Source: Cyclobacterium xiamenense (GTDB lineage Bacteria > Bacteroidota > Bacteroidia > Cytophagales > Cyclobacteriaceae). Taken from it: a DNA stretch of 64,000 bases. The position numbers were made by a program, and so were the translations under genes. The stretch spans positions 62,001 through 126,000 of the forward strand of contig NZ_WIOK01000017.1 in NCBI RefSeq assembly GCF_009467825.1. Reading direction: 5' to 3'. Positions 1,811 to 17,529 of this stretch are shown here, piece by piece; within the stretch, counting starts at the first letter, position 1, and the number at the start of each line of letters is the position of its first letter. The notes beneath the pieces are model-generated. The model did no database searches. It had not been told where the DNA came from and was given only the letters and a program-made list of their open reading frames with translations.

Positions 1811-1979
1811 AGGGTCACCATGTACCGCAGAGTTCAACAAAGCGTACCATTGCTTAACTATTGAATAAAGCCTGAGTGAAACACTGCGTAAACCCCATGT
1901 AACTTAAAAAGTTAAACAAAAATAAAACCACCGTGCTGCGCTGAGTCCAACTTAGTGTACCACGGTGAAACTTAAGACC
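1811..1979. repeat. Intergenic cluster of three degenerate ~32-nt repeat units
   Basis: The 169 nt between fcl and gmd hold no gene. They contain three imperfect copies of one motif. One copy begins near 1818 (CCATGTACCGCAGAGTTCAA then AGCGTACCA), a second near 1871 (CTGAGTGAAACACTGCGTAA) and a third near 1931-1974 (CTGAGTCCAACTTAGTGTAC then CACGGTGAAACTTA). The third copy is bracketed by an inverted repeat, CACCGTG at 1929-1935 and CACGGTG at 1961-1967, which could fold as a hairpin. No function can be read from the sequence. Similar short degenerate intergenic strings occur in other Bacteroidota genomes, but I could not search for them here. Confidence 0.5.
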
Positions 1980-3119
1980 ATGAAAACAGCATTAATCACA
2001 GGAATTACCGGTCAGGACGGGGCTTACCTCGCCGAATTACTACTATCCAAAGGCTACACGGTACATGGAGTCAAACGAAGAGCCTCTCTTTTTAATACGG
2101 ATAGGATTGACCATTTGTATCAGGATCCGCACGATGACAACAAGCGATTGTTTTTGCATTACGGGGATTTGACAGATTCGATGAACCTGACACGGATCAT
2201 CCAGGAAACCAAACCGGATGAAATCTACAACCTGGCTGCCATGAGCCACGTGAAGGTGAGTTTTGATACGCCGGAATATACGGCAAATGCCGATGGTATT
2301 GGCACGCTTCGGATATTGGAAGCGGTTCGTTTGCTGGGCATGGAAAAAACGACCAAGGTCTACCAAGCTTCGACTTCCGAATTGTACGGACTGGTGCAGG
2401 CAGTACCCCAATCCGAATCCACGCCCTTCTATCCCCGATCCCCCTATGCCGTTGCCAAGCTGTACGGCTATTGGATCACGGTCAACTACCGGGAGGCCTA
2501 TGGCATGTATGCGTGTAACGGGATCTTATTCAACCACGAGTCGCCGTTGAGAGGGGAGACCTTTGTTACCCGTAAGATTACCCGTGCGGTGGCGAAGATA
2601 GCCTTGGGGCTTCAGCGTGACCTGTACATGGGCAACCTGGATGCAAAGCGAGATTGGGGGCATGCCAAGGATTACGTAGATGCCATGTGGCGCATCCTGC
2701 AGCAGGACGAGCCAGAAGATTACGTCATTGCTACGGGCGTGACCACCAAAGTGAGGGATTTTATTAAAATGGCTTTTGAAGAGGTGGGCTTTACGCTGTC
2801 TTTCGAGGGTGAAGGAATAGACGAGAAGGGTATCCTGGCAGACATCGACAAGGAAAAAGCCTTTGATATACTTGGAACTTCTCACTTTAAAGTAAAGAAG
2901 GGCGACGTGCTAGTCAAGGTTGACCCGGCTTATTTCCGGCCAACCGAAGTTGATTTGCTTATTGGTGATCCGACCAAAGCGATGACCAAGCTCGGCTGGA
3001 AACCGAAGTATGATTTGAAGATGCTGGTGGAGGACATGGTCCTTTCGGATGTAAATTTATTCAAGCGCGACATCCATTTGTTGAAAGGTGGGCACAAAGT
3101 GCTGAACCAGGCGGAGTAG
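1980..3119 (+). CDS. gmd: GDP-mannose 4,6-dehydratase
   Basis: Converts GDP-D-mannose to GDP-4-keto-6-deoxy-D-mannose, the substrate of Fcl, in the cytosol. The 379-residue product has the NADP-binding motif [14 protein letters not shown] at its N-terminus. It also has the STSELYG active-site segment, the catalytic YAVAK, and [16 protein letters not shown] and [14 protein letters not shown], all typical of Gmd. An upstream in-frame GTG at 1965 would add five residues, but the family normally starts at the MKTALITG motif, so the ATG at 1980 is preferred. The gene order fcl-gmd, with a repeat-filled spacer between them, is unusual because the pair is often adjacent or reversed. A strong terminator follows. 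Confidence 0.97.
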
Positions 3120-3720: not shown

Positions 3721-6330
3721 ATGCAAATTACTCGTTTGTTTCTGACCCGATTTTTATTGATTTTAGTGTTGCTGGTTCACACCGGAATTCTCCTTGCCCA
3801 ATCTTTGCAGGATATTCAAAAAGTGAGAGCAGACGACCTTTCTGATGCACAAATAGAACAATTGATTAAAAGAGCTGAAGCATCGGGAATGAACGAGCAG
3901 CAACTTATTGCGGTTGCTCGCGAAAGGGGCTTACCGATGAGCGAAATTTCTAAACTGCAGCAGCGAATAGCGTCGTTACGGAGTGGGAGCAGAACTACCG
4001 GCAGTCGTACGACGAACGGGAACAATCAAGCCAGACAAATAGGGGAAAGTGAGAACGATAGTATTTTTGAGGGGATAGCGGAGCAGGATCCGTTTTCTGA
4101 TTTGACGCCCAAACAGAAACAAATTTTCGGGTATACACTCTTTTACAACCGCGAACTCAACTTTAATCCGAGCTTAAATATCCCGACCCCTCCTGACTAT
4201 ATTATTGGTGGGGGAGATCAGTTATTGATAGACGTGTATGGTGCTTCCCAGCAGTCTTACGAGTTGACGGTGAATCCTGAAGGGAGTATTTTCGTTCCAA
4301 ACATCGGGCCCATTAAGGTGGCCGGGGCTACCATCGCTGCAGCTACCTCTCGAATTAAATCTGCAATGCAGCAAATTTATTCAGGCTTGGGGGGATCTGA
4401 CCCAAATACTTTTATGGAACTTAGGCTGGGTAACATAAGGACGGTATCCGTAGCCTTGGTTGGAGAACTTAATCAGCCTGGAAACTACAAGTTGCCATCA
4501 TTCGCTTCCCCTTTCAACGCGCTTTTTGCTGCGGGGGGGCCGAACGAAAACGGTTCTTTCCGACACATTCAGGTTTATCGAGACAACAAACTGCTTACAG
4601 AAATCGATGTTTACGATTTTTTAGTCAAAGGCGAGCAATCCACGACAAACACACTCAGAGACAACGATGTGATTATTGTTCCTCCTGTCAGAAACAGGGT
4701 TGAAGTAGTGGGCTCTGTCCGTAGGCAGGGTCTTTTTGAGATCAAATCGGGAGAAAATTTATCGGACCTTATAAGCTACGCAGGTGGGTTTAAAGCGGAA
4801 GCATACAAGGAACGCGTCACCCTTACTCGCATCACAGCTAGTGAACGGAAGGTGGAGGATGTAGATGCCGATAGTTTTACCGATTTTGTTCCTCAGGACG
4901 GAGATAGCTACAGGGTTGGCGAAATACTAAATCGGTTTATTAACAGAGTGCAGGTTTCAGGCGCTTTGATGCGGCCGGGAACTTTCTCATTGAGTCCGGA
5001 TATGAAGATTAGCGACCTCATAGAAAAAGCAAACGGGCTAAGGGAGGACGCTTTTCTAAACAGAGCTACCTTATATCGGATGCAACCGGATTTCTCTCTT
5101 GAAATCATCTCATTGGATCTTGAGGCAATAATGAGTGGGGCAGGTCAAGATATGGTATTGCAGCGGGAAGACGTTCTGCATATCGCTAGCATATACGATA
5201 TTCGGGAGGAATACTTTGTGAAAATTTCTGGAGAAGTTAATAATCCGGGATCTTTTCCTTTTGGCGAAAATATGACCGTGGCTGATTTGGTGATGCGATC
5301 TGGAGGCTTCAAGGAATCAGCAAGCGCCTCACAAATAGAAATAGCCAGAAGGGTGAAAAGTGAGGAGGACGGTAAGTTGGCGGATATTATCCGTATAGAG
5401 ATCGACAGGGATTTAAAACTGAATGCAGAGAGTGCGGAAATGGAATTGCTACCTTTTGATCACGTGATTGTCCGAAGAAGCCCTGGATTTCAACGGGAAA
5501 AATTGGTACGGGTGGAAGGCGAAGTGAACTATCCGGGTGAATATGCCATCTCGCGTGCAAACGAGCGAATTTCGGACCTACTGAATAGATCCGGAGGTCT
5601 AAACCCTTTTGCATACGCTAAAGGGGCAACATTAATAAGGAGAAATGAATTTTACGACGTTCCAAGTGATCAGGATATTGAACGGAAAAATTTAACCTCG
5701 GTACGGAAAAATATTTTGAGTGGTGATTCCGATCGTTCAGAATTTGATAAAATTTTATTGGAAAAAATTAGCGAGGAGATTGAAGAAAAAGAAATCGACC
5801 AAGCCGATATTGAAGGGAATTTGTTGTCGGATGAATTCAGAAAAAAGACCTTAGAAACCTTTGTTGAAAGAGATTCTGTAGATTTTGAAATTAAAACGAT
5901 GGAAATGGTCGGGATTGATTTAGCCGCGATTTTGCGAGATCCCGGTGGGCCGAATGACCTAATTCTTCAGGAGGGCGACGTGCTATCGATACCAAAAGAG
6001 CTTCAAACCGTTCGTATGCGAGGAGAGGTATTGTATCCAACCTCTGCGAGGTACCGCGAGAAATCGGGTTTTAAGGATTACATTTCCAGAGCGGGTGGAT
6101 TTACCAGTAGGTCTCACAGAGGAAGATCATATGTCGTGTATGCAAATGGCGATGTTCAACGAACGAAGCGGTTTTTGTTCATCAATGTGTATCCTACCAT
6201 GGAACCGGGAGCTGAAATAATCGTACCCAAAAAACCCATACGTGAATCCATGAGTGTTCAGGGTTGGGTAGGGCTGGCAACAAGTTTGGCTACTTTGGTG
6301 ATTTTAATTGACAGGTTGGGTACCAACTAA
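3721..6330 (+). CDS. Outer-membrane polysaccharide export protein (Wza-like, six SLBB domains)
   Basis: Forms the outer-membrane or periplasmic conduit for the polysaccharide. The 869-residue protein begins with a signal peptide (residues 1-27, ending LLAQ), so the ATG at 3721 fits. A Poly_export domain starts near residue 157 (DYIIGGGDQLLIDVYG). Six SLBB-type repeats of the form V.GEV..PG...  begin near residues 245, 327, 410, 500, 596 and 764. A charged, coiled-coil-like stretch lies at about 655-720, and a hydrophobic C-terminal helix (LATSLATLVILI) may be membrane-anchored as in Wza. This long multi-SLBB form is common in Bacteroidota and far larger than E. coli Wza. The Wzz-like gene follows 20 nt downstream. 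Confidence 0.93.
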   Translation: MQITRLFLTRFLLILVLLVHTGILLAQSLQDIQKVRADDLSDAQIEQLIKRAEASGMNEQQLIAVARERGLPMSEISKLQQRIASLRSGSRTTGSRTTNGNNQARQIGESENDSIFEGIAEQDPFSDLTPKQKQIFGYTLFYNRELNFNPSLNIPTPPDYIIGGGDQLLIDVYGASQQSYELTVNPEGSIFVPNIGPIKVAGATIAAATSRIKSAMQQIYSGLGGSDPNTFMELRLGNIRTVSVALVGELNQPGNYKLPSFASPFNALFAAGGPNENGSFRHIQVYRDNKLLTEIDVYDFLVKGEQSTTNTLRDNDVIIVPPVRNRVEVVGSVRRQGLFEIKSGENLSDLISYAGGFKAEAYKERVTLTRITASERKVEDVDADSFTDFVPQDGDSYRVGEILNRFINRVQVSGALMRPGTFSLSPDMKISDLIEKANGLREDAFLNRATLYRMQPDFSLEIISLDLEAIMSGAGQDMVLQREDVLHIASIYDIREEYFVKISGEVNNPGSFPFGENMTVADLVMRSGGFKESASASQIEIARRVKSEEDGKLADIIRIEIDRDLKLNAESAEMELLPFDHVIVRRSPGFQREKLVRVEGEVNYPGEYAISRANERISDLLNRSGGLNPFAYAKGATLIRRNEFYDVPSDQDIERKNLTSVRKNILSGDSDRSEFDKILLEKISEEIEEKEIDQADIEGNLLSDEFRKKTLETFVERDSVDFEIKTMEMVGIDLAAILRDPGGPNDLILQEGDVLSIPKELQTVRMRGEVLYPTSARYREKSGFKDYISRAGGFTSRSHRGRSYVVYANGDVQRTKRFLFINVYPTMEPGAEIIVPKKPIRESMSVQGWVGLATSLATLVILIDRLGTN

Positions 6331-7773: not shown

Positions 7774-9039
7774 ATGAGTAACAACCTTATAGCGGATAGC
7801 CGTCCACTTAAAGTTTCTAAAGGCACACTAGCGGGCAGGGTAAAGCTTAGTGGGGCGAAGAACAGTGCATTACGACTACTGGCAGCCTCTATATTGACCG
7901 ATAGGGAGATTCGTTTGTCGAATTTTCCCAACGGCTTATTGGACATTCAAGTACATTTGGAAATGCTGGAGGTTTTAGGTAAGAGCTTTGTTTGTGAGGG
8001 GGATAGGGTGGTTATCCGCCAAAACGGCATGCTTAAAACTGAACTAACCTGGCAAAAACGATCTATACGAAATACCCTCTTAATTTTGGGAGCGCTAACC
8101 ACCAGGTATGGTGAAGGAAGGGTGCCGTTGCCCGGCGGTTGCAAGCTTGGGGAACGTAAATACGATATTCATGTGATGCTTTTGGAGCGCCTTGGAGCAA
8201 AGGTTTGGGAAGAAGGAGATTTTCTGTGTGCCCGGGTTGGTAGCGACGGTGTATTAACGGGAAATGATATCTATTTACCCATTAGGTCTACTGGAGCTAC
8301 TGAAAATGCGATCTTATGCGGAGTCTTGGCGAGAGGAACTACCAACATATGGAATCCCCATATTCGTCCCGAAATACTAGATTTAATCCAGATGCTGAAC
8401 AATATGGGTGCTGAAATAACCGTATTTGGTCAGAAATGTATCGTTATTGAGGGAAAAAAGGAACTTCGGGGTGTAGAACATGAGGTAATTCCCGACAATA
8501 TGGAGGCGCTTACCTGGGCTATCGGATCTGTAATTACCAATGGAGATGTTGAAATCCTCAATTTCCCTAAAAATCACCTGGATGTACCGCTTGTTTTCCT
8601 GAAGGAAAGTGGCATGAAAATGTATGAAGGGAAGGATTCGGTAATTGTTAAGGGAGGGACTCCCTATCCCTTGGAAATCAGTACAGGCCCCTATCCGGGA
8701 ATTAACTCCGATATGCAGCCGCTATTGGCTGTATACGGGGCAATGTGCGATGGCGTGTCCAAGATCGTTGACCTTCGATTTCCAGGGAGATATGCCTACG
8801 CAGAAGAACTGGGAAAAATGGGGGTAGATTTTGATGTTCAGGGCGACTTGCTGGTCATCCATGGAGGAAAACCACTCACAGGTACTTCAGTAGAAGCGCT
8901 TGATTTGAGGGCAGGGATAGCACTGCTGTTGGCAGGGTTAACGGCTGAAGGGGAAACAATTATTGAAAATGCCTGGCAGATTCATAGGGGATACGAAAAC
9001 TTACAACTGAAACTCCAGGGATTAGGCGTAACTATTTAA
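7774..9039 (+). CDS. MurA-like UDP-GlcNAc 1-carboxyvinyltransferase (EPS-locus paralogue)
   Basis: An EPSP-synthase-fold enzyme that transfers enolpyruvate from PEP to the 3-OH of a UDP-amino sugar. The 421-residue length is normal. Catalytic residues appear intact: Lys29-Asn30 (GAKNS), Cys123 in LPGGCKLG (the fosfomycin-target Cys), Asp313 in NSDMQ, Arg339 (GRYAYAEEL) and the late DLRAG arginine. The sequence differs from the usual Bacteroidota housekeeping MurA, and it sits in an EPS assembly block with a MurB-like gene two genes downstream. Inference: the pair makes a UDP-sugar with a lactyl ether (UDP-MurNAc or an analogue) for the polysaccharide. It could instead be a relocated housekeeping murA; only a genome-wide count of murA copies would tell. 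Confidence 0.85.
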   Translation: MSNNLIADSRPLKVSKGTLAGRVKLSGAKNSALRLLAASILTDREIRLSNFPNGLLDIQVHLEMLEVLGKSFVCEGDRVVIRQNGMLKTELTWQKRSIRNTLLILGALTTRYGEGRVPLPGGCKLGERKYDIHVMLLERLGAKVWEEGDFLCARVGSDGVLTGNDIYLPIRSTGATENAILCGVLARGTTNIWNPHIRPEILDLIQMLNNMGAEITVFGQKCIVIEGKKELRGVEHEVIPDNMEALTWAIGSVITNGDVEILNFPKNHLDVPLVFLKESGMKMYEGKDSVIVKGGTPYPLEISTGPYPGINSDMQPLLAVYGAMCDGVSKIVDLRFPGRYAYAEELGKMGVDFDVQGDLLVIHGGKPLTGTSVEALDLRAGIALLLAGLTAEGETIIENAWQIHRGYENLQLKLQGLGVTI

Positions 9040-9056
9040 ATACTTGCATTGAAATT

Positions 9057-9572
9057 GTGCGTTCGGTAATAAACATCTTCAAAAAAGAAAGGAGCCGGAA
9101 TGGCTCCTTTCTTTACGATTTTTTTCTGAATCCAAGATACAGGGTTTTATTAAATTACCGAATGGGTGTACATATTAAAAACAGCGCCATTCCATGTAAG
9201 GGTGTATTGCGTAATTACCTTCGATTCAGAATGCTAGCTAAATGGAATTGTGATATTTCTTATTCATCCTTTATCGGCAAAAATCTCCATATGCCTCATC
9301 CTATTGGGATTGTCATTGGAGATGGCGTGGTTATCCATGATGATGTCACAATTTTTCAAAATGTGACTTTGGGGAGCCATGGAAAAAATAGTAAAGATCT
9401 AAAATACCCGACAATAGGGAAAAGCGTGAAGATTTATGCAGGTGCAGTTATCATTGGAGGAGTATCAATTGGAGAAGGAGCAGTAATTGGTGCTAATTCG
9501 GTAGTGAATAGCAACGTACCACCATTTTCGGTTATTGTAGGTGTTCCGGGAAGAATTGTTGCTCCCAAATGA
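9057..9572 (+). CDS. Serine acetyltransferase-like hexapeptide O-acetyltransferase
   Basis: A left-handed beta-helix acyltransferase of the serine-acetyltransferase/WcaB type, 171 residues, probably O-acetylating a sugar in the repeat unit. Hexapeptide repeats run from about residue 75 (IGKNLHMPHPIGIVIGDGVVI) to the C-terminal VIVGVPGRIV. The acetyl-CoA/catalytic His region is HPIGIVIGD and NVTLGSHGK. The start is GTG at 9057; the first ATG would remove the conserved N-terminal helix region. It overlaps the next gene by 4 nt (ATGA), which implies translational coupling. True serine acetylation for cysteine synthesis is unlikely given the short N-terminus and EPS context. Confidence 0.85.
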   Translation: MRSVINIFKKERSRNGSFLYDFFLNPRYRVLLNYRMGVHIKNSAIPCKGVLRNYLRFRMLAKWNCDISYSSFIGKNLHMPHPIGIVIGDGVVIHDDVTIFQNVTLGSHGKNSKDLKYPTIGKSVKIYAGAVIIGGVSIGEGAVIGANSVVNSNVPPFSVIVGVPGRIVAPK

Positions 9573-10858
9573 AAGGATTCCTAAGTGATGTCTTTCGGGT
9601 AGGGGTCTCGAAAATCATTATCATAACCTCTGGATTCGTCACGTCTATTGTTGTAGCCAGGGCATTGGGTCCAGAAAAAAATGGAATCATTACTTCGCTG
9701 TTAGTTTATCCCACCATTTTTATGACAGTCGGGTCGTTGGGGGTGAGGCAATCGGTAACCTTTCTGTTGGGTAAAGAAAAGTATTCGGAGCGAAACCTAA
9801 AGGAAGCGCTGTTTCAAATCTGGATTTTGACGTCGGTTGTTTCAACGATTCTGTGTTTTTCCTTAATTTATTTTTTTAGTAGAACACATAAGGAGCTTTC
9901 GTTGATCGTGCTTGCGGTAGCTCCGATTACCTTCAGTTTATTCAATACCTATTGTTCAGGTATTTATTTGGGCAAGAATAAAATCAGCGAGTTTAACGCG
10001 ATAAACTGGATCCCAGCCGCAGTGACCACGGCCTTTTCATTTTTATTTCTCGTGATCTTTAAATCAGGTATCGATGGGTACCTGATTTCTGTTTTTTTAG
10101 GCCAATCCATCATGTTTTTGATCTTGTTTTTCCGCGTTCAGTTTATTGAGTTTTTTACGTTGAAGATAACGAAGAGTATCCTCAAAGATTTGACTGGTTT
10201 AGGTCTTGTTTATGCAGTATCCTTACTCGTTATAAATTTGAATTACCAACTCGATATTATAATCCTGGAGCATTTGAGTTCTGATTTTGAGATCGGCATC
10301 TACTCTAAAGGAGCAAATGTGGTCCAGTATCTGTGGCAAATACCGATGCTTTTTAGTACGATCGTTTTTGCCAGGAGTAGCATTTCAAAAAACAGTTTCG
10401 CTTTTTCGTTAAAAGTTGCCCAATTGCTGCGAATCTCATTGTTGGTTATTGGCGGCCTTTCTTTGGTATTGCTGCTGTTGTCGGATTGGGTGATTTTAGG
10501 GATGTATGGATCGGCCTTTATAGAAAGCGGCCCAGTGTTGAGATTGCTTTTACCTGGAGTACTAATTTTAACGCTCTTTAAAGTAATGAACATGGACCTG
10601 GCAGGTAGAGGAAGACCCTGGGTATCGATGAAGGCGATGGTTCCGGCATTGGGGGTTAATGTTATTCTGAATATGGTACTCGTTCCTGACTATGGTGCCA
10701 AGGGTGCCGCCTTTGCTTCGACAGTTAGTTATTCAGTTGCTGGCTTACTGTTTCTTTGGTTCTACAACAGAGAAGTTCGGATTGGGATTAAGGAAATACT
10801 GCGAATTAGAAAGACGGATTTTGACCCTTTTAGGGGGATGTTAAATAGATTAAAATAA
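9569..10858 (+). CDS. Wzx-type polysaccharide flippase (MATE/MOP superfamily)
   Basis: An integral membrane protein that flips undecaprenyl-linked repeat units across the inner membrane. The 429-residue protein is hydrophobic throughout, with about 12 or more predicted membrane segments. Family-typical features are the N-terminal GVSKIIIITSGFVTSIVVARALGP and the late VPDYGAKGAAFASTVSYS, which resembles the NP.yGa.GAa.at..s motif of RfbX/Wzx proteins. It overlaps the acetyltransferase gene by 4 nt and is followed immediately (TAA then ATG) by the MurB-like gene. Confidence 0.9.
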   Translation: MKGFLSDVFRVGVSKIIIITSGFVTSIVVARALGPEKNGIITSLLVYPTIFMTVGSLGVRQSVTFLLGKEKYSERNLKEALFQIWILTSVVSTILCFSLIYFFSRTHKELSLIVLAVAPITFSLFNTYCSGIYLGKNKISEFNAINWIPAAVTTAFSFLFLVIFKSGIDGYLISVFLGQSIMFLILFFRVQFIEFFTLKITKSILKDLTGLGLVYAVSLLVINLNYQLDIIILEHLSSDFEIGIYSKGANVVQYLWQIPMLFSTIVFARSSISKNSFAFSLKVAQLLRISLLVIGGLSLVLLLLSDWVILGMYGSAFIESGPVLRLLLPGVLILTLFKVMNMDLAGRGRPWVSMKAMVPALGVNVILNMVLVPDYGAKGAAFASTVSYSVAGLLFLWFYNREVRIGIKEILRIRKTDFDPFRGMLNRLK

Positions 10859-11716
10859 ATGAGAGTGTTTGATAATTTCGACTTAACGAATTACAATTCC
10901 TTCAAGATATATTCAAGATGCAGGCGGGCATTTTTTCCAGATTCTGACAGCGATATCCAGCATCTTTTTTCTACTAAAAAGAATTACATTCTTTTAGGAT
11001 CGGGGCACAATGTCATTCTTTCTAAATCTTACTACGAAGATGATTTTATTATTTTCAATGGTAATTTTTCGAAAATCGAATTGGCGGCGGACTATGACAT
11101 AATTGAGGCACAGGCGGGGGCGAGCATGTATGATTTAAGTCTCTATGCGCTAGATAAGGGGTTGACGGGTCTGGAAATTTTCTTTGATATCCCCAGTTCA
11201 TTGGGAGGCGCCGTAGTAATGAATGCCGGCGCAAGTGGTGAGGAAATCAAGGATGTTTTGCTAAAAGTGAAGTACTTGGATTTGCAAACCATGGAAGTCA
11301 ATGAAATCAAAAAGGAAGATATCGATTTTCAATACCGGAATAGTTTTTTTCAAAAGAATACGGATAAAATTATTTTGAGTGCTTCATTAAAGCTCACCCA
11401 AGGAGATAAACGTGCGATTCAATCGAAAATGGACCTGATTAAAGAACAAAGGTGGAAAAAGCAGCCCAGGGACCTACCCAACGCTGGAAGCGTGTTCAAA
11501 AGGCCGAAGGGGTTCTATGTGGGAGCAATCATTGATGAATTAAAATTGAAAGGAATGACAAAGGGAGGAGCGAAAATTTCTGAAAAGCATGGTGGATTTA
11601 TTGTTAATCAGGGTAATGCAACAGGAAGCGATATCCTGGAACTAATTGTAGAGATTAAGCATAGAGTAAATGAAAAATTTGGAATCGATTTAGAAGTTGA
11701 GCAGAGAATCATTTAA
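10859..11716 (+). CDS. MurB-like UDP-N-acetylenolpyruvoylglucosamine reductase (EPS-locus paralogue)
   Basis: A FAD-dependent reductase of the VAO/PCMH fold that would reduce an enolpyruvyl sugar to the lactyl ether with NADPH. The 285-residue length fits the short type-II MurB. FAD-binding segments are LGSGHNVILS and SSLGGAVVMNAGASG. Catalytic residues look intact: the Tyr-Arg pair in FQYRNSFF, the proton-donor Ser211 in NAGSVFKRP and the C-terminal Glu281 (EVEQRII). The substrate-loop motif KISEKHGGFIVNQGNATGSD is also present. Its position between the flippase and a glycosyltransferase, two genes from a MurA-like enzyme, argues for a role in EPS precursor synthesis rather than cell wall. 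The start codon abuts the wzx stop. Confidence 0.88.
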   Translation: MRVFDNFDLTNYNSFKIYSRCRRAFFPDSDSDIQHLFSTKKNYILLGSGHNVILSKSYYEDDFIIFNGNFSKIELAADYDIIEAQAGASMYDLSLYALDKGLTGLEIFFDIPSSLGGAVVMNAGASGEEIKDVLLKVKYLDLQTMEVNEIKKEDIDFQYRNSFFQKNTDKIILSASLKLTQGDKRAIQSKMDLIKEQRWKKQPRDLPNAGSVFKRPKGFYVGAIIDELKLKGMTKGGAKISEKHGGFIVNQGNATGSDILELIVEIKHRVNEKFGIDLEVEQRII

Positions 11717-11721
11717 ATTAG

Positions 11722-12681
11722 ATGTTGGTCAGCATTATTTCCGTATTTTACAACAGAGAAAAATTCGTCGATTTTTCAGTAAATAGTTTGATTAACCAAA
11801 CTTACCAGAATCTTGAGATCGTTTTGTGTGACGATGGTTCCTCTGATGGTACCCTGGAAGAATTGAAAAAGTTTGAAGCATTGGACCCGAGGGTTACGGT
11901 ATTGCATCATTCCAATAGAGGGTTTACAAACTCCATTCGCAGGGCAGTAGCTGCATCAAACGGAGCATTCATTGCAATCCACGGTTCCGGGGATCTCTCT
12001 CATCCGGATAGAATCCAAAAGCAGCAAGATTTTTTATCCAAAAATCCATCGGTTGGGGTAGTAGGATGCTTGTTTGAAAGGGACGACTTGATTCTAAATA
12101 GAAAGGTGGTTGTAGGAAGGCAAAAAGGAGGGGATGTGCTCAGTAACATTTGCGTAAGTCATGGAGAAGTGATGTTTAGGAAGGATATATATGATGCAGT
12201 CGGTGGATATAGGCCTTTTTTTTATTTTTCTCAGGATAGAGATTTATGGCTAAGAATGTCCTTGCTGTGCAAAATTGACTTTATTCCTGAAGTATTGTAC
12301 ACCGCATATACGAGAAGTGACGGCGTCACTGGTAGTGCTTATAGCAGAGCTATTCAATTGTATTTCGCTGAGATATCGAAACAGATGTACGAAATGAGGG
12401 TGAGAAATGGTTGGGATTTTATCGATAAGTTTGGCGGTAATGCATGGGTATTCAAACGTAGGTCCAAGCGCCTCGGAAATGAATTGATAAAGCACGCTCT
12501 CTGGGCTTTTCGCCAAGGCAACAAAGCGGAATCTTTCAAAATAATTGAACTGGCCAAAGGAGAGTCGGGTGCGGGTTTTATTCATTTAGTTGCTTTTATG
12601 ATCCTTTTTTTAGGAAAATTTGAAAATGGGCCCGCTTTTTTGTCACGCATGTTAAATGTGAAACGGAGGCTTATTAAATGA
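11722..12681 (+). CDS. Glycosyltransferase family 2
   Basis: A GT-A fold transferase that adds a sugar to the lipid-linked repeat unit at the cytosolic face. The N-terminal domain is typical: VSIISVFYNREKF, LINQTYQNLEI, LCDDGSSDGT. The metal-binding DxD position reads HGSGDLSHPDRI, so the first Asp of the usual D-D pair is replaced (SGD). Catalytic metal use may therefore differ. It ends with basic residues (RMLNVKRRLIK) and overlaps the polymerase gene by 4 nt (ATGA). The sugar and linkage cannot be read from sequence. Confidence 0.9.
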   Translation: MLVSIISVFYNREKFVDFSVNSLINQTYQNLEIVLCDDGSSDGTLEELKKFEALDPRVTVLHHSNRGFTNSIRRAVAASNGAFIAIHGSGDLSHPDRIQKQQDFLSKNPSVGVVGCLFERDDLILNRKVVVGRQKGGDVLSNICVSHGEVMFRKDIYDAVGGYRPFFYFSQDRDLWLRMSLLCKIDFIPEVLYTAYTRSDGVTGSAYSRAIQLYFAEISKQMYEMRVRNGWDFIDKFGGNAWVFKRRSKRLGNELIKHALWAFRQGNKAESFKIIELAKGESGAGFIHLVAFMILFLGKFENGPAFLSRMLNVKRRLIK

Positions 12682-13979
12682 ATCGATTGATAATTCGAAG
12701 GGAAAGAGTGGAGGTTTTCCTTGTTCTTATACTGTTATTCTTTGCCATATACCTTCCACCAGTTAGATTTTTAAAGTTTTCTCCGGAATACTTATTGATT
12801 GTTGGCTTTCTAGTCTGGCTTTTTATTCACCTAAAAACCTTAAAATATGCTCTCACGACTAGAGGGATCTTCGTGTTTTTTTTAACCTTTTCCCTTATTG
12901 TGTATTACTTATTTTTGAGAGAATATCTAAGCTCTGGAGTTAAAGATATTGGTTTCCAACAACTGTATTGGGTTAAGCAACTGAGGTTTTTGGTTAATAT
13001 ACTTCTAATTTCGCTCCCCTTTTCGTTAATTTTCTATAGGCGCAATTGGACGATCGATAAACTATTGGAAGCTTTCGTCGTTTTGGGAATTGTTCAGTCG
13101 GTTTTTGCCGTTGTAATGCTAGCCATACCGGGGCTAAAGGAGTATGTCACCGATCAGTTTCTAGATTTGCAGTTTATGTTCGACCAAAAGGGCGAGTTGT
13201 TGCTCTTTAGAATTTATGGACTATCGTCCGAGTACCTATTTACCTATCCGATTTTTCAAGGCATGGTCTTAATGATTATATTTACTATGGTGGCGCAGGG
13301 AGTTTATAAATATATCTGGTTCGTCCCCATCATATTGATTAGTATCGTGTTTAATGCGAGAATTGGTCTGGTAGCTCTTCCAATTATTCTTTTCGTTTAT
13401 TTTATTTTTACGCTAAGGAAATCTGATGAGTCGGTTAGTTTTTCGAAATTCATAAAAATTTCTTTCGCGATACTGGTTGCAGTTCTATTGTTGGTTGTTA
13501 GTATATCCTTATTTATTGATCCTGAGATCTTTACCTACATGGTCTTACGAGGATTGGAATCTAACACCAGTGGTGCCAATCACTGGGATAACTTATTTCA
13601 ACGCATGATCGTCCTCCCGGATAGTATACAGGGGATAATTTTTGGGGAAGGTCGATACTTATACGGGAATGTTTACGATGTGCAATCAGATATTGGATAC
13701 ATTAATGATTTGTTGTTTGGAGGTGTTTTTTATATTGTTGTTTATTTTTCGTTAATTTTGTATTTGCTTTTCAATAAGTTTAGCAGTTTTTCCAGAATTA
13801 ATAAAGTATTATTTGCTTCGGTATTTTTATACATCATCGTTTGTAACTACAAAGGCCCCTTACTTGTGAATAATGGATTTTTGAGGGCAGTACTTATCGT
13901 TTTATTTCTTCACCATTTAAATAGTAGAGATGAATCAGAATCCACTGATTTCTATAATCACAGTCTGTTACAACAGTGA
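12678..13979 (+). CDS. Wzy-type O-antigen/EPS polymerase
   Basis: A 433-residue polytopic membrane protein, about 10-12 hydrophobic segments, with a large soluble loop at about residues 280-340 (GLESNTSGANHWDNLFQRM). Size, topology and position in the cluster match Wzy/O-antigen ligase (PF04932-like) proteins, although these are poorly conserved, so the call rests on topology and context. The last 50 nt overlap the next glycosyltransferase gene in another frame, a long overlap for this locus, so the final 16 residues (ending HSLLQQ) are encoded by shared DNA. Confidence 0.8.
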   Translation: MNRLIIRRERVEVFLVLILLFFAIYLPPVRFLKFSPEYLLIVGFLVWLFIHLKTLKYALTTRGIFVFFLTFSLIVYYLFLREYLSSGVKDIGFQQLYWVKQLRFLVNILLISLPFSLIFYRRNWTIDKLLEAFVVLGIVQSVFAVVMLAIPGLKEYVTDQFLDLQFMFDQKGELLLFRIYGLSSEYLFTYPIFQGMVLMIIFTMVAQGVYKYIWFVPIILISIVFNARIGLVALPIILFVYFIFTLRKSDESVSFSKFIKISFAILVAVLLLVVSISLFIDPEIFTYMVLRGLESNTSGANHWDNLFQRMIVLPDSIQGIIFGEGRYLYGNVYDVQSDIGYINDLLFGGVFYIVVYFSLILYLLFNKFSSFSRINKVLFASVFLYIIVCNYKGPLLVNNGFLRAVLIVLFLHHLNSRDESESTDFYNHSLLQQ

Positions 13980-14763
13980 AAAGTATATCGATGACGCATT
14001 TTCATCTATTTTAAACCAAACCTATAGTAACTTCGAGTACATACTAATAGATGGCTCTTCTACGGATGGTACGCTCTCGAAAGCTCGTGCATTCAAGAAC
14101 CTGCTGCACCAGGATTTTACGATAGTTTCAGAAAAAGACGATGGTATTTACGATGCCATGAATAAGGGCATTGAGCTGGCAAAAGGAGAGTTGATTTGTA
14201 TTTTAAATAGCGATGACTTTTTTGTTCCAGAATCCCTACAGCGATATGTGGAATGTTACCGGGGCCATAACTGCGCAGATAATTTAATTATTGTAGGGGA
14301 TGCGCACAGGGTTGATAGAAATGGGGAAATCAGCTATTTACGTAGAAATACACTTTCTATACTCGAGCAACAAATTGAATTTACGATGCCGCTGGTGCAT
14401 CCGGCTTTTTGTGTACATACAAATGTATATAAGAAATTAGTGGGACTATTTAATGTGTCAGTTAAGCTGATCGCCGATTACGATTTTACTTACAAGGCAT
14501 ATAAATCTGGTGAGGTAGAATTTGCATTTGTAAATTCTGTCACTGTGAACATGAGAGAAGGTGGAGTCTCCGATGTTTTTGATCTCGGGTTAATTTGGGA
14601 CCGAACCGCGGCTAGATTTACCGTAAGAAAGCACTACCAAAATGCCGCAAAAAATTTTCTATTATGTGCTCGGTTTTACACAGAAGAAGTTTTAAGGCAG
14701 TTTCTCAAAAAATATTTCAGAAAAACAAAGTTATTGAAAACCAACCGTAAGCATGATTCATAA
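13930..14763 (+). CDS. Glycosyltransferase family 2 (WcaA/WcaE-like)
   Basis: A GT2 enzyme of 277 residues. It has the conserved ISIITVCYNSEKYI start, ILIDGSSTDGT, KDDGIYDAMNKGI (diagnostic of the colanic-acid WcaE-like subgroup) and LNSDDFF as the metal-binding motif. The GT domain begins at residue 7, so the ATG at 13930 must be close to the true start and the 50-nt overlap with the polymerase gene is real. The C-terminus is basic (RKTKLLKTNRKHDS), which suggests membrane association. It overlaps the next gene by 11 nt. Confidence 0.9.
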   Translation: MNQNPLISIITVCYNSEKYIDDAFSSILNQTYSNFEYILIDGSSTDGTLSKARAFKNLLHQDFTIVSEKDDGIYDAMNKGIELAKGELICILNSDDFFVPESLQRYVECYRGHNCADNLIIVGDAHRVDRNGEISYLRRNTLSILEQQIEFTMPLVHPAFCVHTNVYKKLVGLFNVSVKLIADYDFTYKAYKSGEVEFAFVNSVTVNMREGGVSDVFDLGLIWDRTAARFTVRKHYQNAAKNFLLCARFYTEEVLRQFLKKYFRKTKLLKTNRKHDS

Positions 14764-15961
14764 TTTACGATTTTTGATTCCGGATGACCTTAAGCAGCGG
14801 CTTCTCTATCCGGGATATTATTGGTCTGTTGTTAAATCGAAGTTCGATAATAGGTATTTTAGTGGTCTAGAAATCATTAGTGCTGGTTACAAAAATGAGT
14901 TTGGGGGGTATTTTAATTTGCCGATCGGAAACAAGCTCGGAGATGTACTATTTCAAGGAACCGATCAAACTGCATCTTCCTGGCCTCCTAAAGGTGAATT
15001 GGCAATATGTATCAGGGAAAGTGGAGCTACGGACGCCAGAACGTTGGCCTATTCACGAGCTTGGAATTGGCAACAAGGGGCTTTTTTAAGATGGTTTTCC
15101 GAAGATTTGCTATGTTTTAATGACTACGATAGCAATACAAAGACGTATTGCGTGAAGATCATGGATAAGCAAGGACGACTGGTTCGGCAAATTGATTCCC
15201 CCCTTGGTGCAATTGACTTTTCTGGAAGTGTTGGTGTATCCTATTCCTTCGAGAGGTTGGCTATTCTTCGAGAGGATTATGGCTATTTTGCAAAAGAACT
15301 GTCAAATGAGCGGGAAATCCTCACTGAACCGATTGCTTTTAGCTTGGTCGATCTCAACTCCGGTGGTTTGGTCCATCGTGTTAGTTTTGATGATTTAAGA
15401 GATATAACTGAAGTTCAACCGGAAAATGATAAAGTAAATCATTTTGAGTTCAGTCCAGACGGAAAAAAAGTAGCTTATTTATATAGGTATTGGGTGGATC
15501 AAGTAAAGATTACAAAAATGATGGTCTTTGATCTTGAGAAAAAGTCCCATACAGTGATCGGAAATGAAAAGTTTTATTCTCACTTTTGCTGGATAGATAC
15601 TGAGCAAATTCTTGTCTTCGGCCAACTCGAAGAAGAAAATAAATTCTTTGTGATAAACTGTGTTTCTCAGAAAAAGTTTATTCCTGATTTTTTTGTTCCC
15701 CCCCATGACTCCCATCCAGCGACAAAGACTGGAAAACGAATAGTCTTTGACAGTTACCCAAGTTTTTTTAGAAAGTCAAATATTCTTGTAGTCGATACCG
15801 TTAACGGAACGCGTACTTCTATTGGCAGGTACCTACACCACCCTACATTTAGAGGAGTGAATAGAGTAGACCATCATCCCAGGTTTAACCAGGATGAACG
15901 GAGGGTGTATATCGACCTTCCTCTTGGTAGAGAACGTAAGTTTGGTGTGATTCAATTATGA
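14753..15961 (+). CDS. Predicted cytosolic beta-propeller protein of the EPS cluster, function unknown
   Basis: A 402-residue protein with no signal peptide and no membrane segment. It shows repeated beta-rich blades reminiscent of TolB/WD40-like propellers: FEFSPDGKKVAYLYRYW, SHFCWIDTEQILVFG, HPATKTGKRIVFDSYPS and the terminal DHHPRFNQDERRVYIDLPLG. The motif AWNWQQGAFLRWF near residue 105 looks like a conserved family signature, and I recall similar strings in uncharacterised EPS-locus proteins. It sits between two glycosyltransferases with short overlaps at both ends (11 nt and 4 nt, ATGA), so it is co-translated with them. It may be a scaffold or a divergent sugar-modifying enzyme; no catalytic motif is evident. 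Confidence 0.7.
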   Translation: MIHNLRFLIPDDLKQRLLYPGYYWSVVKSKFDNRYFSGLEIISAGYKNEFGGYFNLPIGNKLGDVLFQGTDQTASSWPPKGELAICIRESGATDARTLAYSRAWNWQQGAFLRWFSEDLLCFNDYDSNTKTYCVKIMDKQGRLVRQIDSPLGAIDFSGSVGVSYSFERLAILREDYGYFAKELSNEREILTEPIAFSLVDLNSGGLVHRVSFDDLRDITEVQPENDKVNHFEFSPDGKKVAYLYRYWVDQVKITKMMVFDLEKKSHTVIGNEKFYSHFCWIDTEQILVFGQLEEENKFFVINCVSQKKFIPDFFVPPHDSHPATKTGKRIVFDSYPSFFRKSNILVVDTVNGTRTSIGRYLHHPTFRGVNRVDHHPRFNQDERRVYIDLPLGRERKFGVIQL

Positions 15962-16800
15962 GGGTATCGATCGTATTGGCCTGTAGGGATAATCGAGGGA
16001 GTCTGAAAATGACTGTAAAGTCGATTTTGAGGCAGAGTTATAAAGAGTTTGAGCTTATTATCGTTGATGATGGGTCCAAAATACCGATTCATATAAGTTT
16101 ATCGGATATTTCGGACCCGAGAATAAGGATTTATCGAATCGATGGTCAGGGGCTTGGAGCAGCGTTGAACTATGGTATTTCGAAAAGTACAGGAGACTAC
16201 ATTGCGCGTATAGATGACGATGATTTGATGGATCCACAAAGAATTCAAAAGCAAGTAAGTTTTCTGGATAATAACCGCCGTACGGTGTGTGTGGGAACTC
16301 AGTTGTGGTTTAAATCCGGAGGCAGGTATAAAGCGGTCAGGAGATTCCCGGTGAAAAATGATGCCATTTTGGACGATTTGTTGCGGCTTAAATTTAGCAT
16401 TGCTCACTGCGCCGTTATGTATCGGAGGAGTGCCTTCGAGGCGGTGGGGGGATACCGAATTTTAGGTGGAGGCCAAGATCTGGATTTGTTTCTTCAATTC
16501 AGTAAGGTCGGCGAACTTGCGAACCTGGATGAATTTCTCACCTATTATAACCTTTCCCTTAGCGGATTGTCCGTTCGGGCGCCGAAAAATAAATACAAAG
16601 CCTATTTGTTTGCATTGAATTCAATAGCAAATGATTCCAGGTTTGTAACCCATCGAAGCGAAATTTCCGGGACGATTAATGTGGTTTTAACCAAATTGAG
16701 TTCAAGATCAAACTATTTGTTTGCTACAAAGCGTTTTTTTTTGATTTGGGGTGTTTGGTTGTTTGGAAAGAATATTGCTTCGAATTTGAAAGTAAACTAA
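15958..16800 (+). CDS. Glycosyltransferase family 2
   Basis: A 280-residue GT-A transferase with VSIVLACRDNRG, IIVDDGSK, the metal motif IDDDDLMDPQRI and GGYRILGGGQDLDLFLQF (the ED-like acceptor loop reads QD). It overlaps the propeller gene by 4 nt (ATGA) and abuts the next gene (TAA then ATG). A hydrophobic patch near the C-terminus (FLIWGVWLFG) may bind the membrane. Specificity is unknown. Confidence 0.9.
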   Translation: MRVSIVLACRDNRGSLKMTVKSILRQSYKEFELIIVDDGSKIPIHISLSDISDPRIRIYRIDGQGLGAALNYGISKSTGDYIARIDDDDLMDPQRIQKQVSFLDNNRRTVCVGTQLWFKSGGRYKAVRRFPVKNDAILDDLLRLKFSIAHCAVMYRRSAFEAVGGYRILGGGQDLDLFLQFSKVGELANLDEFLTYYNLSLSGLSVRAPKNKYKAYLFALNSIANDSRFVTHRSEISGTINVVLTKLSSRSNYLFATKRFFLIWGVWLFGKNIASNLKVN

Positions 16801-17529
16801 ATGTCAATGGAATTTTTTGACTACACGATTAAAGAAGTGCTCCCCTCACGCTTGCAGGGAGGAAAAACTATCATCCATACACTCAATCCCCATTCATTTT
16901 GTATCGCCAAGACAGATAGATTGTTTAAGGAATCACTTTTGAGCGCTGATTATTTGATACCAGATGGCGTGGGTATTGTTCTGGCGGTAAGAATTCTATT
17001 TGGAAAGAAAATTAAGAAGGTATCGGGATCTGATCTTCACGCACATGTTCTGCAAGTGGCCAATGATAATTCGCTGAGAGTTTTTTACCTGGGGGCATCG
17101 GAAAGTACGTTACTAAAAATCAAGGAAAAGGTGAATCTTGAGCATCCAAATATCGAAGTTGGCTGCTATAGTCCACCTTACAAAAATGAATTTGACCCCG
17201 AAGATAACCGTTTGATGCGCGAAAAAATCAACGGGTTTAAGACGGACGTGTTGTTTGTAGGGATGACTGCTCCGAAACAAGAAAAGTGGATTTACGAAAA
17301 TATTCAAAGCCTCAATGTACTATTTGCTTCGGGAATTGGGGCAGTATTCGATTTTTACGCAGGGACCGTAAAAAGACCGTCTCAGTTTTGGATAAAAATG
17401 GGTCTGGAATGGTTACCAAGACTTTTTAGAGAACCTAAACGACTGTGGAAAAGAAACTTTCATTCGACTCCCGAGTTTTTGTTTGATATTATCAAGGAGA
17501 AAATTACGCCTACGTCCCGTTCCAACTAG
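16801..17529 (+). CDS. WecG/TagA/CpsF-family glycosyltransferase (GT26)
   Basis: Transfers a UDP-activated sugar (in known members ManNAc or ManNAcA) to the undecaprenyl-linked first sugar. The 242-residue protein carries the full family signature: TLNPHSFCIA, ADYLIPDGVGIV, FYLGAS, VGMTAPKQEKW, GIGAVFDFYAGTVKRPSQF and GLEWLPRLFREPKRLWKR. It is the last gene of the + strand EPS block. No initiating phosphoglycosyltransferase (WcaJ/WecA type) occurs in the window, so chain initiation must be encoded elsewhere or upstream of base 1. Confidence 0.93.
   Translation: MSMEFFDYTIKEVLPSRLQGGKTIIHTLNPHSFCIAKTDRLFKESLLSADYLIPDGVGIVLAVRILFGKKIKKVSGSDLHAHVLQVANDNSLRVFYLGASESTLLKIKEKVNLEHPNIEVGCYSPPYKNEFDPEDNRLMREKINGFKTDVLFVGMTAPKQEKWIYENIQSLNVLFASGIGAVFDFYAGTVKRPSQFWIKMGLEWLPRLFREPKRLWKRNFHSTPEFLFDIIKEKITPTSRSN

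Follow-up and report, generated by a model that had tools for sequence, protein, structure and literature searches.

A second MurA-MurB pair in a polysaccharide locus of Cyclobacterium xiamenense, probably dedicated to a lactyl-ether sugar

Why would two consecutive enzymes of cell-wall precursor synthesis be encoded in a locus for extracellular polysaccharide (EPS)? This question is raised by a 64,000-nucleotide stretch of the Cyclobacterium xiamenense contig NZ_WIOK01000017.1 (positions 62,001 to 126,000), hereafter the window, in which a MurA-like and a MurB-like gene stand with genes for a hexapeptide acyltransferase and a Wzx flippase. A sequence-only reading had assigned these four genes to 7774-11716 and proposed that they make a lactyl-ether sugar, of muramic or isomuramic type, for the polysaccharide rather than for the wall. 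Our analysis puts at about 0.74 the probability that the MurA-MurB pair is dedicated to an EPS of the Wzx/Wzy type and supplies it with a nucleotide-activated lactyl-ether sugar. The four gene assignments agree with the Pfam and NCBIfam matches, and the four open reading frames (ORFs) were confirmed:

7774-9039, + strand: MurA-like enolpyruvyl transferase (EPS clade A); PRK09369, 383.5 bits; catalytic residues kept; EPS clade support 100/100
9057-9572, + strand: hexapeptide (serine-acetyltransferase-like) acyltransferase, optional member of the module; PF00132; best NCBIfam model EPS_EpsC, 118.3 bits, below its cut-off of 150
9569-10858, + strand: Wzx-type flippase, of the subtype linked to EPS MurA; PF01943, 50.1 bits, cut-off 28.2
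10859-11716, + strand: MurB-like FAD reductase (EPS clade, type-II-like); TIGR00179, 217.5 bits; S229, E325 and R159 kept; clade support 100/97

Type I and type II are names of MurB types. The window Wzx also matches the MurJ family PF03023, at 20.4 bits, below the cut-off of 27.4.

A single murA and a single murB in the genome would have marked the window genes as the housekeeping ones. The genome (5.78 Mb, 99.99% complete) encodes two of each, so this explanation was rejected. Contig C92 encodes one MurA, which at 437 bits exceeds the TIGR01072 cut-off; the window copy scores 373.8 bits (374.4 in the genome search), just under the equivalog cut-off of 392.7, and passes the PRK09369 subfamily cut-off of 297. 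The two MurB proteins over the TIGR00179 cut-off of 144.5 bits are encoded on contig C34 (239 bits) and in the window (218 bits). The best model for the window MurB is PRK13905 (254.9 bits, just below the cut-off of 259), and the housekeeping MurB fits PRK00046 (421 bits). Separate housekeeping MurA and MurB were also found in 11/11 named relatives tested, which represent 11 of the 15 EPS-type loci described below (without L084, L090, L091 and L092); the MurA search took in 17 of the 80 named loci, these 11 among them. The EPS MurA of ten of these relatives falls below the TIGR01072 cut-off, that of Kriegella above it (393.9).

The housekeeping MurA carries Asp at the position of E. coli Cys115, in this genome and in 17 other Bacteroidota rows, whereas all 25 EPS MurA carry Cys; this difference is an addition to the sequence-only reading, as is the membership of Wzx in a conserved module. 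Cys-to-Asp MurA is described as fosfomycin-resistant (PMC6801904, PMC4062475). The contrast leads to the prediction that fosfomycin acts on the EPS MurA and spares the housekeeping one; it might thus block the EPS sugar while wall synthesis continues.

Each of the two window proteins falls in a lineage of its own, shared with homologues that are encoded in polysaccharide loci elsewhere in Bacteroidota and on one Sumerlaeota contig. The EPS MurA form a single clade, with a support of 100/100, or 100/99 after removal of nine rows (the long Sumerlaeota row and eight others). The EPS MurB also form a single clade (100/97), grouped with the Firmicutes-type set, apart from the E. coli and housekeeping rows. 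The MurA trees and the MurB tree carry a warning that long branches come together in them; the two longest MurA stems, those of the housekeeping rows and of clade B, stay apart. The housekeeping rows for MurA came from six of the 18 non-EPS loci L017-L034, from L001 and from the 11 named relatives; ten Firmicutes MurA loci were compared besides. For type-II MurB, 20 rows were drawn from the 65 non-EPS loci L093-L157, including L096, a delta-proteobacterial record. One MurB comparison row (firm_L110, 601 aa) proved to be a wrong ORF, which leaves 19 valid rows in the Firmicutes-type set, and was removed from the tree giving 100/97; locus L092, cut by a contig end, was omitted from the residue and tree sets. 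A recent duplication of the housekeeping genes was rejected on the basis of the separate clades in both the MurA and the MurB trees and of the PGGC versus PGGD motif.

The window MurA aligns almost end to end with phrog_25097, a phage protein family of unknown function (322 bits), and MurA-like proteins therefore occur in some phages. Among plasmids, no EPS-type MurB was found: all 69 records lie below 60% identity, with a maximum of 38.1% among the eight listed. A MurB-like gene on plasmid NC_011003.1 of Burkholderia cenocepacia J2315 (83130-83981; the match also touches a carbamoyltransferase gene) is possibly another recruited MurB.

The distribution of the pair was followed in a family sample of 148 genomes, that of C. 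xiamenense included. EPS MurA is present in 11 of them, eight with clade A (its own and seven at 71-82% identity) and three with clade B (37-39%); second MurA matches in G022, G038, G041, G052 and G129 stand outside this count. EPS MurB is present in ten genomes (its own and nine at 58-70%), the next matches reaching 33-36% over part of the protein. All ten are among the 11 genomes with EPS MurA, and none of the 137 others has it. The Wzx subtype (46-57% identity, E <= 1e-60) occurs in exactly the same 11 genomes and in 0/137 others, the next Wzx match being 28% identical. The co-occurrence of MurA and Wzx gives a Fisher p of 8e-17, a value that ignores kinship. Of the ten genomes having both enzymes, nine encode EPS MurA and EPS MurB no more than about 3.2 kb apart. 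The 11 module genomes span nine genera; the module is missing from both sampled genomes of the window's own genus. In an even sample of the whole phylum, the module is rare, since EPS MurB and the Wzx subtype were found together in 1/395 genomes, the window's own; that sample offers no further test of co-occurrence. The separate housekeeping pair, the co-inheritance with a flippase subtype and the distinct clade of each enzyme thus argue that the pair serves the polysaccharide and not the wall, as the sequence-only reading had supposed.

Named genomes were scanned with the EPS MurB alignment. Among the best 80 of 581 matches, to which the counts for named loci refer, at least 15 EPS-type loci were found (48-65% identity), and further ones may exist; the listed matches then drop to 45% or less and are nearly all Bacillota by title, with one delta-proteobacterium. 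The EPS-type loci belong to Aurantibacter, Kriegella, Olivibacter, Pelagihabitans, Flavobacterium, Winogradskyella (three), Psychroserpens, Sphingobacterium, Zhouia, Algoriphagus, Pontibacter, Mesonia and one Candidatus Sumerlaeota contig. Aurantibacter crassamenti, Olivibacter sitiensis, Zhouia amylolytica and Psychroserpens burtonensis are cultured relatives that carry the module. In each of the 14 uncut loci, the genes for EPS MurA and EPS MurB are at most about 3.2 kb apart. As the same neighbours recur in other Bacteroidota, the association of the gene quartet is beyond chance. The Sumerlaeota contig (L090, 3 kb) carries an EPS-type MurB and a clade-B MurA, in the order MurB-MurA, outside Bacteroidota.

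The residues are consistent with the chemistry expected of such a pair. The active-site residues named in the sequence-only reading map to E. coli catalytic positions: Cys123, Asp313 and Arg339 of the window MurA correspond to C115, D305 and R331, and Ser211 and Glu281 of the window MurB to S229 and E325. Eleven MurA positions (K22, N23, D49, R91, C115, R120, D305, R331, D369, R371 and R397, in E. coli numbering) are identical in 25/25 EPS MurA, so that the catalytic and PEP-binding set K22, C115, R120, D305, R331, D369, R371 and R397 is complete. R159, S229 and E325 are retained in 24/24 EPS MurB. With both chemistries intact, a lactyl-ether sugar would be the natural product of the pair.

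On this basis, the following path is proposed. The MurA-like enzyme would use PEP to place an enolpyruvyl group on a hydroxyl of a UDP-hexose; reduction of this enol ether by the MurB-like enzyme would yield a lactyl (1-carboxyethyl) ether, by which the UDP-sugar would gain a carboxylate. The hexapeptide protein could O-acetylate the sugar, as an optional step, before its transfer. A neighbouring glycosyltransferase, for which the product of 11722-12681 is a candidate, would place the lactyl sugar into a lipid-linked repeat unit; the dedicated Wzx subtype would flip this unit, and Wzy, Wzz and Wza would polymerise and export the chain. A 3-O linkage, an (R) configuration and the reading of the lactyl sugar by Wzx would complete this scheme.

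Several observations weigh against it. We infer the lactyl-ether product, its linkage and its configuration from genes alone. The two EPS MurA sub-clades, A and B, are only about 37% alike and are paired with one MurB clade, for which reason the acceptor sugars may differ among loci. In one family genome (G031), MurA is on a different contig from MurB-Wzx. Another (G095, locus L075) has a clade-B EPS MurA beside the Wzx subtype and no EPS MurB, which means that the reductase is not obligatory or that the housekeeping MurB serves there. The count of 11 genomes depends on the exclusion of G105, which was judged before the Wzx search; with it the overlap would be 11/12. The second MurA of G105, 39% identical to the window protein, was rejected as EPS-type, having canonical motifs and grouping with E. 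coli MurA (98/79; 91/89). In the named genomes, only 7/13 longer neighbourhoods (L078, L079, L081, L083, L085, L088 and L089) have the Wzx subtype at 50% identity or more; among the remaining six, L084 has a 28% Wzx relative, L087 has another Wzx-type protein and four are without a recognised Wzx. The tie of MurA to this flippase thus looks strict in the family sample and looser outside the family. Finally, no match to the initiating transferase family PF02397 was found on the window's contig.

The identity of the acceptor sugar separates the lactyl-ether reading from its main rival, namely that the product is ordinary UDP-MurNAc, which enters the EPS unmodified, and that a second gene set does no more than keep EPS flux apart from wall flux. 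The retention of all catalytic and PEP-site residues is compatible with this. D123, the uracil contact of MurA, is Asp in 24/25 EPS MurA and Glu in one, and a UDP-sugar is likely still the substrate because of this retention. No nucleotide-sugar pathway was found to be common to all 27 loci in the stretches compared, which makes it probable that the acceptor comes from the general metabolite pool, as UDP-GlcNAc does. A TagA/WecG-type transferase family is represented in the operon, and in known systems such transferases act on GlcNAc/ManNAc lipids. G095 would need the housekeeping MurB, and a GlcNAc product is in keeping with that.

The sugar region of MurA points the other way. Just six alignment columns (E. 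coli positions 262, 297, 304, 325, 327 and 329) distinguish all 25 EPS MurA from all 30 others, and V327R, E329P and T304S occur in 25/25 EPS MurA and 0/30 others; the Arg at 327 corresponds to Arg335 of the window protein. Positions 304, 325, 327 and 329 appear to lie in or near the sugar pocket. Asp305 belongs to the glucosamine pocket of MurA and Arg91 and Val163 to its diphosphate pocket (PMC10500568); a docking study on 1UAE (PMC10816260), and hence weak support, names Ala297, Val327 and Glu329 among the residues surrounding its ligands. We read this pattern as a sugar pocket that is altered while the chemistry is not, and these changes speak for a possible acceptor other than UDP-GlcNAc. 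On the MurB side, Tyr125 is absent from 24/24 EPS MurB and present in 12/12 housekeeping and 19/19 valid Firmicutes-set MurB. Moreover, the housekeeping pair already supplies MurNAc. We therefore hold the use of ordinary UDP-MurNAc to be unlikely, though it is the most serious competitor; the product is probably not plain MurNAc and, given the rest of the lactyl-ether reading, a UDP-sugar other than GlcNAc is somewhat favoured as acceptor. A UDP-sugar-dehydrogenase cluster (two members checked with Pfam) lies near the module in 9/27 loci. Three genes of this kind are present in the window's genome, all outside the window's contig; on this evidence a uronate is no more than a possible acceptor.

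A second alternative concerns the configuration. The sequence-only reading had left room for an isomuramic-type sugar, and an (S)-lactyl epimer could arise if MurB reduced the other face of the enol ether. Isomuramic acid is reported from the O-antigen of Proteus penneri 62 (PMC10609480), and the FAD loop of EPS MurB carries near-invariant changes (G112S in 23/24, Asp at 109 in 24/24). The conservation of the proton donor Ser229 and of Glu325 and Arg159 favours the usual (R)-lactyl chemistry, so that the isomuramic form of the lactyl ether is disfavoured and we regard it as improbable. That the two genes are spare peptidoglycan enzymes sitting in the EPS locus by chance is supported by the NCBIfam models, which would label both as cell-wall enzymes (PRK09369 and TIGR00179, over cut-off); the tight operon, the conserved EPS neighbourhood, the co-occurrence with a flippase subtype, the patchy presence even within the genus, the separate clades and the altered pocket make this very improbable. 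Least credible of all is that, in some loci, the EPS bears a group of enolpyruvyl or pyruvyl type and the MurB-like protein has another role. G095, with its MurA-like protein and Wzx and no EPS MurB, speaks for this; against it, EPS MurB accompanies EPS MurA in 10/11 family genomes, and its active site is intact.

A bolder form of the lactyl-ether reading would be a portable MurA-Wzx-MurB cassette for lactyl-ether sugars in Bacteroidota glycans, with a non-GlcNAc UDP-hexose as acceptor (perhaps a UDP-hexuronate, to which the invariant Arg327 would respond) and with recognition of the lactyl sugar, in the lipid-linked unit, by the flippase subtype. We advance it tentatively, at somewhat less than even odds.

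How does this module compare with known systems? The EPS enzymes share with peptidoglycan MurA and MurB the sequence family, all checked catalytic residues and two consecutive steps; they differ by their own clades, by the score of the window MurA under the TIGR01072 cut-off, by the changed sugar-pocket residues and by their location and co-inheritance with an EPS flippase. NikO of nikkomycin biosynthesis (PDB 4fqd), whose substrate is UMP (PMC6801904), is also a Cys-type MurA-family enzyme recruited to another pathway. However, the window enzyme scores far higher against MurA (257 bits) than against NikO (124.6 bits) and does not classify as NikO-type, and the available part of the description of NikO mentions no MurB partner (PMC6801904). 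Lactyl-ether sugars are themselves known from bacterial glycans (PMC10609480, PMC8466920): 4-O-lactyl-Glc in Shigella dysenteriae, isomuramic acid in Proteus penneri 62 and 4-O-lactyl-Man in Salinivibrio. Their lactyl methyl group gives an NMR signal at about 1.4 ppm in PMC8466920. These are end products of the kind proposed for the window, where the evidence is genetic. In the literature searched, a partial coverage with many subscription papers outside it, no gene was found assigned to the lactyl-ether step, and no MurA/MurB pair. Within that literature, lactyl-ether sugars in glycans and the recruitment of MurA (NikO) are thus already known, and a MurA/MurB pair for a polysaccharide lactyl ether would be new. 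The module would provide a genetic candidate, with its own flippase, for this step, and a marker by which lactyl-ether glycans could be predicted from genomes. It would also be a case of cell-wall chemistry reused in a surface polysaccharide, and a warning that automatic annotation would label such a pair as cell-wall enzymes.

The quartet opens a tight run of ten genes (7774-17529), which look co-transcribed, as the gaps from the MurA-like to the TagA-like gene range from 17 to -50 bases (17, -4, 0, 5, -4, -50, -11, -4 and 0). Genes for Wza- and Wzz-type proteins and for GDP-fucose lie upstream of the run. The other features are:

860-1810, + strand: GDP-L-fucose synthase-like; NF047922, 473.4 bits, cut-off 500
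1965-3119, + strand: GDP-mannose 4,6-dehydratase; TIGR01472, 589.8 bits, cut-off 415
3721-6330, + strand: Wza-type polysaccharide export protein with SLBB repeats; PF02563, PF10531
6345-7463, + strand: Wzz/GNVR chain-length (co-polymerase) protein; PF02706, PF13807
11722-12681, + strand: GT2 glycosyltransferase adjoining MurB, candidate for lactyl-sugar handling; PF00535, 97.5 bits; related GT2 beside MurB in some other loci
12678-13979, + strand: probable Wzy polymerase, from position, length and hydrophobic look only
13930-14763, + strand: GT2 glycosyltransferase; PF00535; WcaE-like, 90.7 bits, below cut-off
14753-15961, + strand: 402-aa protein without family match
15958-16800, + strand: GT2-like glycosyltransferase; NCBIfam EpsE/TuaG-like, below cut-offs
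16801-17529, + strand: WecG/TagA/CpsF-family glycosyltransferase; TIGR00696, 130.5 bits, cut-off 69

With PF01943, PF02563 and PF02706 found together with PF00535 glycosyltransferases, this is a Wzx/Wzy-type polysaccharide locus, although Wzy was recognised by no model tried: the product of 12678-13979 has no Pfam, NCBIfam or PHROG match. The 402-aa protein has no match in these three collections either; a counterpart at 59% is present in the closest relative locus, L065.

Around the module, the composition varies. In many loci MurB is followed by a GT2 relative or by a weakly GT-B-like protein of about 386 aa, the latter being present in 16/27 loci, not always adjoining MurB. The hexapeptide-protein cluster occurs in 9/27 loci compared, the window included. 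The slot 3' of MurA is filled, depending on the locus, by a hexapeptide, a sulfotransferase-like or an Asn-synthase-like protein, which suggests alternative decorations, as is typical of polysaccharide decoration. Between MurA and Wzx/MurB, an Asn-synthase-like gene is found in L084 (1355-3157) and sulfotransferase-like genes in L069 (6524-7414) and L091 (9138-9995); the hexapeptide protein stands alongside the sulfotransferase-like one in L091 and is absent from L084 and L069. Just upstream of the EPS locus in L077, a NusG-like antiterminator gene lies on the opposite strand (13959-14477).

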